Below are positions 46,012-56,023 of a stretch of DNA of 64,000 nt, in pieces. The first letter of the stretch is position 1. Each line of letters begins with the position of its first letter. The notes beneath the pieces were generated by a model. The model saw nothing but the letters and a program-made list of their open reading frames with translations, was not told the DNA's origin and searched no databases. Both the position numbers and the translations under genes were made by a program. The DNA is from Cryptobacterium curtum DSM 15641 (lineage in GTDB: Bacteria; Actinomycetota; Coriobacteriia; Coriobacteriales; Eggerthellaceae), in the NCBI RefSeq assembly GCF_000023845.1, contig NC_013170.1:806001-870000 (forward strand). Direction: 5' to 3'.

Positions 46012-46461
46012 CTAATTGAGGCCACTACTACCAAATCCACCCGTCCCGCGTTCAGTTTCATCGAGTTCGTCTGTCTCGATAATTGTTGGAGACTCAACTT
46101 TCATGATAACCAACTGAGCGATGCGATCTCCAACCTGTATGTTAATTGGTGTATGAGGATCAAGATTGATAGCGATACACTTCAGTTCACCACGATAGCC
46201 GCTATCAATAAGTCCGGGCGTATTAACTAGTGACAAACCATGTTTAATGGCGGATCCACTTCGTGGAAGAACAAAACCGGCATACCCATGAGGTATTGCA
46301 ACAGCAAGTCCTGTTGGGATAAGAGCTCGTTCGAATGGTTGAAGTGTAAGCGGAGCTGAAGCGCGCAAATCGATACCAGCATCACCGGCATACGCAGCAT
46401 GCGGTATAACAGCTTCGGCCGTTAACTTTTTAATCGGCAAAGGGATTTGAGTGGTATCCAT
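46012..46461 (-). CDS. dut: dUTP diphosphatase
   Basis: A 149-residue trimeric dUTPase that removes dUTP and supplies dUMP. All five family motifs can be found: AGDAGIDLRA, PRSGSAIKHGL, NTPGLIDSGYRGE, RIAQLVIMKVE and the C-terminal RGTGGFGSSG. It begins 3 bp after the nrdR stop and so ends a likely nucleotide-pool operon that starts at the LexA-box region. Confidence 0.96.
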   Translation of the reverse strand: MDTTQIPLPIKKLTAEAVIPHAAYAGDAGIDLRASAPLTLQPFERALIPTGLAVAIPHGYAGFVLPRSGSAIKHGLSLVNTPGLIDSGYRGELKCIAINLDPHTPINIQVGDRIAQLVIMKVESPTIIETDELDETERGTGGFGSSGLN

Positions 46462-46464
46462 AAA

Positions 46465-46908
46465 CTAGAGACCTTTCAAGGCTTTAGCAAACTCATCGAC
46501 CGTTTTGAAATCTTTATACACGCTTGCAAATCTGATGTAAGCAACCTCATCAAGATCAGCAAGACGCGCAAGAACCATATCGCCAAGTTCTTTTGACTGG
46601 ATTTCAGTGCGATTGCTGTTACGCAATTCTGCTTCGAGGTCATCAACAAGATCATTTACCTGTTCAGGGGCAATATGACGCTTCGCGCAAGCAATATACA
46701 CACCATGAAGAATTTTATCGCGATGATATACCTCAGATGAGCCATCGGACTTCAAAACGATAAGGGGATTTTCACCGAGCCGTTCGTAGGTAGTAAAACG
46801 ACGACCACATGAAAGGCATTCGCGACGACGGCGTATAGAAGCCCCATCCTCTGAAGGTCGAGAATCAACTACTTTTGAATCAGTGTTTCCACATGAAGGG
46901 CAACGCAT
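46465..46908 (-). CDS. nrdR: Transcriptional repressor NrdR
   Basis: A 147-residue repressor of ribonucleotide reductase genes that senses (d)ATP. It has the N-terminal zinc ribbon MRCPSCGNTDSKVVDSR...CLSCGRRFTTYER and an ATP-cone domain (from about residue 46). The ATG at 46908 matches the universal MRCPxC start and has GAGAGGA 5 bases upstream; the longer frame is discarded. It sits between the LexA-boxed small membrane protein and dut. Confidence 0.96.
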   Translation of the reverse strand: MRCPSCGNTDSKVVDSRPSEDGASIRRRRECLSCGRRFTTYERLGENPLIVLKSDGSSEVYHRDKILHGVYIACAKRHIAPEQVNDLVDDLEAELRNSNRTEIQSKELGDMVLARLADLDEVAYIRFASVYKDFKTVDEFAKALKGL

Positions 46909-46996: not shown

Positions 46997-47362
46997 TTAG
47001 AGAATAGCAATCAGTGCACCAGCGGCAATAAGAACATAGACCGCAGCGGCACCAACATTTGTGAACAATGACGGTTTTTCACGATAGCCATAGCCACTTA
47101 AATCATGCTTCTTAATATCGGCGGCGATATCGCTTGTCCGAACGAAGTCAACAGCCTGATAAAAAAGACGCTGGGTGGTATCGATAAAGCGCATAACTTT
47201 GCTGTATAAAATGTCAGATATGGCTGGTTCATACAACTGTTCTGCTTGCGCAAATGTGCGCTGTGCCTGGGCGAAATCGATAACGGATACCGTCGGTGCT
47301 TTATGAGCAGCAACCAGTGCTGAGGAACCCATCACTCGGTAGTCACGCTGTGATCCGTTCAT
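46997..47362 (-). CDS. Small tail-anchored protein, divergent from lexA (candidate SOS division inhibitor)
   Basis: A 121-residue protein that I cannot assign by sequence. Residues 1-100 are hydrophilic and partly helical; a single hydrophobic segment at 103-121 ends the protein, so it is probably tail-anchored with its bulk in the cytoplasm. There is no LysM motif. The ATG at 47362 has AAGGAG 5 bases upstream. Its promoter (TTGACA-17-TAGAGT on minus) contains a LexA box. By position it corresponds to Rv2719c in mycobacteria and DivS in corynebacteria, SOS-induced division suppressors next to lexA and nrdR; that equivalence is inference from context. Confidence 0.75.
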   Translation of the reverse strand: MNGSQRDYRVMGSSALVAAHKAPTVSVIDFAQAQRTFAQAEQLYEPAISDILYSKVMRFIDTTQRLFYQAVDFVRTSDIAADIKKHDLSGYGYREKPSLFTNVGAAAVYVLIAAGALIAIL

Positions 47363-47378
47363 TTTCGCTCCTTCTGAC

Positions 47379-47406
47379 TTGATAAGAACTTCTGTTCGTG
47401 TATACT
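47379..47406 (+). promoter_or_regulatory. Promoter of lexA
   Basis: TTGATA (47379-47384), 16 bp and TATACT (47401-47406) on plus. LexA box 1 lies entirely inside the spacer, so LexA binding would block RNA polymerase. The start would be near 47413. Confidence 0.65.
47385..47398. promoter_or_regulatory. LexA box 1
   Basis: AGAACTTCTGTTCG contains a perfect GAAC-N4-GTTC palindrome, the core of the Gram-positive LexA (Cheo) box. Confidence 0.85.
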
Positions 47407-47432
47407 CTAAATCGAACAAAAGTTCTTGTCAA
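47404..47432 (-). promoter_or_regulatory. Divergent promoter for the tail-anchored protein
   Basis: On minus, TTGACA (47432-47427), 17 bp and TAGAGT (47409-47404). LexA box 2 occupies the spacer. The -10 elements of the two divergent promoters overlap, so the two directions may compete. Confidence 0.55.
47413..47426. promoter_or_regulatory. LexA box 2
   Basis: CGAACAAAAGTTCT, again a perfect GAAC-N4-GTTC, exactly 28 bp from box 1. It covers the expected lexA transcription start and the spacer of the divergent promoter. Confidence 0.85.
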
Positions 47433-47440
47433 TGAAAAAT

Positions 47441-47454
47441 CAAACATTTGTTCG
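47441..47454. promoter_or_regulatory. LexA box 3
   Basis: CAAACATTTGTTCG, one mismatch from the GAAC-N4-GTTC core, exactly 28 bp from box 2. It lies in the lexA leader, ahead of the AAAAAGG ribosome site. Confidence 0.7.
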
Positions 47455-47470
47455 TAAAAAGGAAATGAAC

Positions 47471-48109
47471 ATGAACGATCTGACAAAACGCCAGCAACAG
47501 GTACTTTCTTGCATTGAAGAATTTATTGAAGAAAAGGGATACGGTCCAACCGTGCGCGAGGTCTGCAATAAATTAGGCCTGCGCTCCCCTTCTACCGTTC
47601 ATGTGCATCTTCGTGCTCTCGAAGAAAAGGGGCTTATTAATCGTGATCCGCTGAAATCGCGCTCTATTACCCTCACAGGTGCTGCTGCGGAATCTATGGG
47701 ACAACCTTCTGCGCTGGTCGACACCCCCTACAACGTTGTTACGTTGCCCTTAGTGGGCGATGTAGCTGCAGGAGAACCGATACTAGCTGAAGAAAACATT
47801 ACCGATCATATTTCACTTCCAACGGAAATTGTCGGCGATGCTGCTTCATTTCTTCTTTCCGTTCACGGCGAATCAATGATTGAAGCCGGTATCAATGACG
47901 GCGATTATCTTGTAGTAAAGGAACAACCCACCGCAGTAAATGGCGAAATTGTTGTTGCACTTATCGATGACGGCGCCACCGTTAAACGCTTCTATCGCGA
48001 GGCAGACCATATACGGCTTCAGCCTGAAAATTCATCGATGGAACCGATTATTGTTCGGGATTGCACGATTGTCGGCAAGGTTGTGGCACTCTTCAGACCG
48101 ATACGCTAA
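47471..48109 (+). CDS. lexA: SOS repressor LexA
   Basis: A 212-residue repressor with a winged-helix DNA-binding domain (residues 1-65, recognition region VREVCNKLGLRSPSTVHVHL) and a C-terminal S24 self-cleavage domain. Cleavage site Ala100-Gly101 (GDVAAGEP), catalytic Ser135 (HGESMIEAG) and Lys172 (GATVKRF) are all intact. The ATG at 47471 is chosen because AAAAAGG is 8 bases upstream; the ATG at 47465 is too close. Its leader and promoter carry three LexA boxes, so it is autoregulated. recA at 55960 carries a fourth box. Confidence 0.96.
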   Translation: MNDLTKRQQQVLSCIEEFIEEKGYGPTVREVCNKLGLRSPSTVHVHLRALEEKGLINRDPLKSRSITLTGAAAESMGQPSALVDTPYNVVTLPLVGDVAAGEPILAEENITDHISLPTEIVGDAASFLLSVHGESMIEAGINDGDYLVVKEQPTAVNGEIVVALIDDGATVKRFYREADHIRLQPENSSMEPIIVRDCTIVGKVVALFRPIR

Positions 48110-54901: not shown

Positions 54902-55960
54902 TTACCGCTTTTTCGTCGGCTTTGGCACGGGGGTTACCTCGGCTGAAGCAACCTGGTCGGGAAGCGCAATCTCATACTCTTCGCGCACCTTCGCTTCAAT
55001 TTCCTCGCGTAAATCAGGATGTTCTTCAAGCGTGTGTTTTGCGGCTTCACGACCTTGGCCAAGACGCTCTTCACCATACGTGTACCAGGCACCACTTTTC
55101 TTAGCGATACCACACTCAACAGCCATATCTAAGATGCAGCCAGTTTTTGAGATGCCTTCACCGTATATCAGATCAAATTCGGCCTGACGAAATGGTGGTG
55201 CAACTTTATTCTTTACCACCTTTGCCCGCACGCGGTTACCGATCGTTTCGCCATTAAGTTTGACGTAGTCACACCGACGAACATCAATGCGTACACTACT
55301 GAAGAACTTAAGCGCACGACCGCCGGTTGTAGTTTCGGGATTGCCAAACATAATGCCAATTTTTTCACGTAATTGATTGATGAAAATACAGGTTGTATTG
55401 GATCGTGAAAGTGATCCAGCAAGCTTACGCAGTGCTTGACTCATAAGACGCGCCTGAAGACCGACGGTTGTTTCCCCAATCTCGCCTTCGATTTCGGCGC
55501 GGGGAACCAACGCTGCTACCGAGTCGATAATCACACAATCGATCGCACCGCTGCGCACGAGCATGTCGCATATTTCAAGCGCTTGCTCACCGGTATCAGG
55601 CTGACTGATCAATAGATCGTCAACATCAACGCCAAGACGAGCTGCATAGACCGGGTCAAGTGCATGTTCGGCATCAATAAATGCGGCAATACCGCCAAGT
55701 GCCTGGGCTTCTGCAAGAATATGAAGCGCTAAGGTTGTCTTACCACTTGATTCTGGGCCGTAGATTTCAATGATGCGTCCACGTGGTACACCCCCAATGC
55801 CAAGCGCTGCATCGAGCGGTAATGCACCAGTAGGAATAACGCCCACTTCAAGGCTATGATCATTTTCACCGAGTTTCATGATGGTGCCGCGACCGAATCG
55901 CTGCTCTATTTGATCGGTAGTGATCTTGAGCATCTTTTCTTTTTCGTTGGACTGAGCCAT
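54902..55960 (-). CDS. recA: Recombinase RecA
   Basis: A 352-residue DNA-dependent ATPase for homologous recombination and LexA co-cleavage. Walker A is [13 protein letters not shown], with [36 protein letters not shown] and [22 protein letters not shown] downstream (loop L2). No intein is present. The ATG follows GAAGGGGAAG. A near-consensus promoter containing a LexA box lies 36-63 bp upstream. Confidence 0.98.
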
Positions 55961-55995: not shown

Positions 55996-56023
55996 ATTAT
56001 ACGAACATCCGTTTGTGTGTCAA
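55996..56023 (-). promoter_or_regulatory. Promoter of recA
   Basis: On minus, TTGACA (56023-56018), 16 bp and TATAAT (56001-55996): both hexamers are perfect consensus. The spacer contains the LexA box, a classical SOS arrangement. Confidence 0.85.
56002..56015. promoter_or_regulatory. LexA box of recA
   Basis: CGAACATCCGTTTG fits the Gram-positive SOS consensus CGAAC-N4-GTTYG and occupies the recA promoter spacer. Confidence 0.85.

Follow-up and report, generated by a model that had tools for sequence, protein, structure and literature searches.

Here, we found that the gene read divergently from lexA in Cryptobacterium curtum DSM 15641 probably encodes the SOS-induced division suppressor of this organism, a 121-aa protein which, by its position and its N-terminal motif, would be orthologous to YneA-like LysM proteins and which has no LysM domain. 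The gene was analysed within a stretch of 64,000 nucleotides (the window) and in the source genome, a single contig of 1,617,804 bases. The type strain of the species, 12-3T, is of human mouth origin (PMC3035227).

Results

A predicted membrane protein outside the named families

The open reading frame was confirmed on the reverse strand, from an ATG at 47362 to a stop at 46999-46997 (Table 1). By hydropathy, the protein has one hydrophobic segment, residues 103-121 at the C-terminus, with zero residues beyond it, and an AlphaFold2 model (pLDDT 75.7, pTM 0.39) places helices at 30-76, 78-89 and 102-120. The initial annotation was thus right about the single C-terminal membrane segment, and also about the missing LysM motif: neither LysM nor any other family was found for the window protein in Pfam, NCBIfam or PHROGs, and NF010723 of NCBIfam, with its outer LysM, matched neither the protein, nor the alignment of its family, nor anything in the whole genome. 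A sequence search of the PDB with the protein and/or the family gave no match, as did Foldseek against the PDB with the model, a result that says little for a protein of elongated, helical shape. Direct homology searches with the window protein returned zero matches in plasmids, zero in genome contigs and only chance-level matches in the genomes of its own family. A SulA-like reading was rejected, since there is no Pfam match to this soluble FtsZ-inhibitor family and the window protein is predicted to be membrane-anchored.

Table 1. Positions of the features of the lexA-divergent gene and its surroundings within the window
Feature	Position	Strand	Basis
CDS, 121-aa LysM-less SOS inhibitor candidate	46997..47362	-	ORF and leave-one-out profile membership in lexA-linked family
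Shine-Dalgarno AAGGAG	47368..47373	-	sequence reading
N-terminal motif GSSAL, residues 12-16 (family G-T/S-S/A-A-L)	47315..47329	-	78-member alignment; also in sister LysM forms
Second N-terminal motif VIDF, residues 27-30 (family I-I-x-F)	47273..47284	-	F 91%, I 71-78%
C-terminal membrane helix, residues 103-121, final element of protein	47000..47056	-	hydropathy; AlphaFold2 helix 102-120
LexA box 1 (AGAACTTCTGTTCG)	47385..47398		one mismatch to CGAACNNNNGTTCG; alignment of relatives
LexA box 2 (CGAACAAAAGTTCT)	47413..47426		one mismatch to CGAACNNNNGTTCG; alignment of relatives
Third LexA-like site, weaker, closest to lexA (CAAACATTTGTTCG)	47441..47454		sequence scan and alignment
Putative promoter of the gene, TTGACA-17-TAGAGT	47404..47432	-	promoter scan; TGTCAA and common -10 region conserved in 22-sequence alignment
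Putative lexA promoter, TTGATA-16-TATACT, overlapping that of the gene	47379..47406	+	promoter scan; 22-sequence alignment
lexA, divergent partner	47471..48109	+	ORF; lexA found in 128/137 family genomes
nrdR (MRCPSCG...), downstream neighbour	46465..46908	-	ORF; tblastn with NrdR

A lineage found through lexA

Is the window protein an orphan, as its description as unassigned implied? Because direct searches failed, we used lexA as bait in 137 genomes of the family and read the upstream DNA on the divergent strand. The own family, Eggerthellaceae, is labelled f1, its sisters f2 and f3 (presumably Atopobiaceae/Coriobacteriaceae), and smaller families of the same order f4, f6, f9 and f10. Of 116 assessable family loci, 103 have an ORF divergent from lexA that ends in a membrane helix and in most cases carries GTSAL...IIxF at the N-terminus; 95 of these loci passed the filter and eight were recognised on later reading (L108, L110 and L177-L182). 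Of the remaining loci, 12 are without the gene, and in one (G038) a stop interrupts it. In 94 of 98 tallied candidates, 20-28 nt separate the start codon and the GAAC of LexA box 1.

The members share a layout in which a G-T/S-S/A-A-L motif near residue 12 is followed about 15-20 residues on by I-I-x-F, then by a variable linker, a juxtamembrane LRxG...G and the terminal helix. In the 78-member alignment, the first motif is conserved to 100% at A, 96% at G and 91% at L. Lengths run from 23 to 188 aa, and in alignment A1 the window protein shares only 13-28% identity with its relatives. When the window protein was left out of the profile, it still scored 27.5 bits over its whole length, against 9.9 bits for the best of 2000 shuffles of the same protein. 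As part of a family-wide lexA-divergent lineage, it is no orphan; the gene looks like one to direct searches and was found only by anchoring on lexA, which is a lesson of method. Beyond the own family, the family profile found no good match among 396 genomes of the phylum. Its weak matches in the rest of the class and phylum fall in frames that are long or interrupted, and we attribute them to chance, except for G402 and G339, which are at lexA.

About 10% of the family genomes are without the gene (absent at L063, L075, L077, L088, L094, L097, L098, L100, L105 and L113). At L088, L097, L098 and L113 the LexA boxes are missing along with it, hinting at a rewired SOS control of lexA.

Among 95 members, 0-5 residues follow the membrane segment; the 20 residues before it carry a mean net charge of +1.7 and are net positive in 78 of the 95. 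The proteins are accordingly predicted to span the membrane once, with the N-terminus inside and the C-terminus outside. ChiZ (PMC7355643) and YneA (PMC13396833) are oriented in the same way, so that nothing is inverted and what is missing is the outer domain; the earlier proposal of a topologically inverted new class is not supported.

One promoter region for two genes

The putative promoters of lexA and the window gene overlap within 47355-47480 and have a common -10 region, and this segment is near-invariant over the family. LexA box 2 lies in the promoter spacer of the window gene and box 1 in that of lexA, which would place both genes under one switch. The boxes are spaced 28 bp, and the start of the window gene lies 22 bp past box 1. 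GAACNNNNGTTC is rare in the 1.6-Mb genome, with 8 copies compared to 63 of a reversed control pattern; this pair at lexA and the window gene accounts for two of its copies. Since promoter-like sites in the intergenic region are no more numerous than in shuffles, the promoter assignment rests on conservation: an alignment of 22 relatives shows little or no variation in either box, in the TGTCAA/TTGACA element or in the common -10 region. As judged from these sites, the window gene appears to have the LexA-box-controlled promoter of YneA/ChiZ-type suppressors, and LexA probably controls it in vivo.

The initial annotation had already placed the gene in a slot divergent from lexA and next to nrdR, which starts 88 bp downstream, and had proposed an SOS-type promoter, for which the two boxes speak; its view that the gene has a LexA box of its own needs correction, as both boxes are common to the two genes and none is private. 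In the gap between the window gene and nrdR, a terminator-like site was looked for and none was found. According to tblastn with NrdR, nrdR accompanies the lexA-divergent slot in most relatives. The ORF after nrdR (46012-46461, reverse strand) reads by eye like a dUTPase, so that we take the downstream run to be nrdR-dut.

Two further observations concern other parts of the genome. A LexA-type box (CGAACATCCGTTTG) lies at 56002-56015 of the window, just upstream of recA (54980-55945, reverse strand). The source genome also encodes three SEDS-family (FtsW/RodA-type) proteins (L265-L267; G000:C1:1091740-1092795, 715225-716298 and 386256-387233), one of them in a 930-codon open frame.

LysM proteins in the orthologous slot

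At all 18 f2 and f3 loci examined, the protein divergent from lexA has a C-terminal LysM domain. Four of these slot proteins were tested; all exceeded the Pfam LysM cut-off, and with the NCBIfam YneA model (curated cut-off 60) the best reached 60.6 bits, the others 44.7-53.6. The f2/f3 LysM forms L151-L176 carry a conserved N-terminal GT[SA]AL...EGG module, and their LysM part alone matches a named family. A profile-profile comparison of the N-terminal module of our family with the f2/f3 LysM forms gave a probability of 86 (E 4.9e-6, score 36.4), compared with a score of at most 15.2 for 60 column-shuffled decoys, over a homology that spans only ~34 N-terminal columns and leaves the TM segments outside the alignment. 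The slot and this N-terminal match together point to common descent with the LysM forms. The link to SOS division inhibitors that had been suggested from the position of the gene is thereby strengthened, in that the slots are orthologous to those of YneA-like LysM proteins in sister families; the profile search that had been proposed along with it yielded no match of the window protein to the YneA profile and, for the N-terminal module, the match just described.

The outgroup-order loci listed hold a LysM protein at the lexA slot as well, without the GTSAL module. The family profile did not match the one outgroup-order LysM protein with which it was compared, so that the module seems specific to the own order. 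Across 398 genomes of the class, the YneA profile matched 227 at E <= 1e-5 and 0 in f1; weak matches occurred in one f6 and one f5 genome. The YneA profile found no match anywhere in the own genome, which speaks against a LysM copy having moved to another place. In a tree of NrdR, the LysM-less families f1, f6 and f10 group in a single clade (97/82) that excludes f2/f3 and the outgroup; three f23 rows labelled TA in this tree carry LysM. Since LysM stands in the slot in sister families and in outgroup orders, it is most simply ancestral, and by parsimony it would have been lost on the stem of the f1+f6+f10 clade.

Shortened forms and purifying selection

The shortest members, of 23 aa and essentially a bare helix, come from a single genus (g2), in which eight genomes carry them with a Shine-Dalgarno sequence and a start at the usual distance. 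Gene callers can easily overlook these microprotein loci (L016, L017, L025, L036, L046, L053, L054 and L059). Adlercreutzia muris DSM 29508 belongs to this genus, and its L053 (G004 contig 26) and L197 carry an identical ORF. Further short forms measure 33-34 aa in another genus and about 43-50 aa at several f6 loci.

Has the loss of LysM left only the remnant of a YneA-like suppressor whose function went with it? The family-wide absence of LysM, the wide range of lengths and the genomes that lack the gene would fit such decay. Yet pN/pS was 0.12-0.56 in 16 pairs of full-length forms and, pooled, 0.27 for the 23-aa form in frame, whereas the other frames gave 1.26 and 3.03, and the LexA boxes, promoter, Shine-Dalgarno sequence and start spacing are retained around an ORF that most of the assessable loci keep. 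Judging from these ratios, the 23-aa form is under purifying selection. The selection tests largely refute decay, which we regard as highly improbable.

By part of the protein, pN/pS was 0.29 in the last 45 residues, 0.32 in the N-terminal motif and 0.52 in the linker. This pattern and the short forms suggest that the helix is the part kept everywhere, the N-terminal module being dispensable in some lineages. The same observation bears on a reading in which the protein is a membrane anchor that reaches another SOS or envelope target, or LexA/RecA, through its cytoplasmic GTSAL module and does not act on division. The module is short, conserved, of no known family and kept in the LysM forms too, as such an anchor would require; several lineages, however, dropped it and retained the helix, so that the essential part would seem to be the helix rather than the module, and we consider this reading improbable.

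A bare hydrophobic helix also recalls membrane peptides of the TisB/DinQ kind, which would lower the membrane potential or slow metabolism and thus pause growth without blocking the septum. LexA control agrees with this, as does the shrinkage in one genus to a hydrophobic peptide of 23 aa, and DinQ is itself an SOS-regulated, toxic peptide with a single TM (PMC3567139). Against it, the slot is orthologous to that of YneA-like LysM proteins, and most members keep a conserved cytoplasmic module that would be superfluous for a pore-like peptide. We rate this reading as unlikely, if slightly less so than an anchor for another target.

Discussion

On a division-suppressor reading, we propose that LexA shuts both overlapping promoters through the two boxes, to which it would bind, and that after DNA damage the RecA-triggered cleavage of LexA, as established for the SOS response, would lead to the joint production of the window protein and LexA. 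The protein would then insert by its C-terminal helix, with its N-terminus in the cytoplasm and, as predicted, nothing outside. The helix could dock on the septal wall-synthesis complex, most likely on FtsW/FtsI, where helix, juxtamembrane region and cytoplasmic part may stall septum synthesis as ChiZ does with its N-terminal region and TM, and as SidA does. By analogy with these systems the window protein would inhibit division, and it would do so without gripping peptidoglycan, unlike YneA of Bacillus subtilis. The conserved short N-terminal motif might tune activity or turnover, a role we suggest because several lineages lost the motif and kept the helix.

We consider it an evenly balanced proposition that the whole family arrests division under SOS without an outer domain, and that one genus does so by a lone 23-residue helix, independently of SidA. 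If so, inhibition would lie wholly in the membrane helix and the cytoplasmic side, a lone TM peptide could stop FtsW/FtsI, and the 23-aa ORF would be a candidate minimal FtsW/FtsI inhibitor. Such a system would help to fill a gap in the coupling of division to DNA damage in Eggerthellaceae, which are common gut and oral bacteria. No description of this coupling in the lineage was found in the open-access literature, and our claim of novelty extends as far as the open-access papers that the search covered.

The closest systems by descent are the f2/f3 LysM suppressors (NF010723), with which the window protein has in common the lexA-divergent slot, the LexA boxes, the N-terminal GT[SA]AL module and a single TM; they end in an outer LysM, whereas the window protein stops at the membrane. 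DivS of Corynebacterium glutamicum, an SOS suppressor encoded next to lexA that has no significant homology to YneA (PMC3989709), resembles it by description. YneA of B. subtilis is likewise lexA-linked and SOS-induced, with a single TM that targets FtsW; it starts with this TM, which binds TM7 of FtsW and still localises when LysM is removed, and its C-terminal LysM is required for inhibition (PMC13396833), whereas in the window protein the TM is C-terminal and there is no LysM. SosA of Staphylococcus aureus (77 aa) is lexA-adjacent, SOS-controlled, single-spanning and without LysM, but it acts through its outer C-terminus, which it needs (PMC6851548), whereas the window protein has no residues in that place. 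Since the YneA TM without LysM does not block division and SosA needs its outer C-terminus, loss of the outer part could also mean that function was lost or changed.

For ChiZ (Rv2719c) of Mycobacterium tuberculosis, by contrast, the N-terminal region and TM are enough for filamentation (PMC7355643), and the LysM is apparently unnecessary according to a review (PMC3989709). ChiZ and the window protein are alike in layout, with a cytoplasmic N-terminal region followed by the TM, although ChiZ retains an outer linker and LysM that the window protein lacks. Because the window protein has the layout of ChiZ cut after the TM, we favour a ChiZ/SidA-like inhibition of the FtsW/FtsI complex, exerted within the membrane and from the cytoplasm. 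The series of losses, from N-terminal module, TM and LysM over N-terminal module and TM to the TM alone, would amount to a natural dissection of what YneA/ChiZ-type suppressors need, and it bears on the conflict in the literature between a LysM essential in YneA and one reportedly dispensable in ChiZ.

The end point of this series has its close analogue in SidA of Caulobacter crescentus, a tiny SOS-induced inner-membrane protein of 29 aa that interacts with FtsW (PMC4211646). The 121-aa window protein is too large for the SidA type (at most 30 aa and essentially one TM), whereas the 23-aa form of the Adlercreutzia muris genus would fall within it; SidA belongs to another phylum and has no known relation to this form, so that the likeness is probably convergent.
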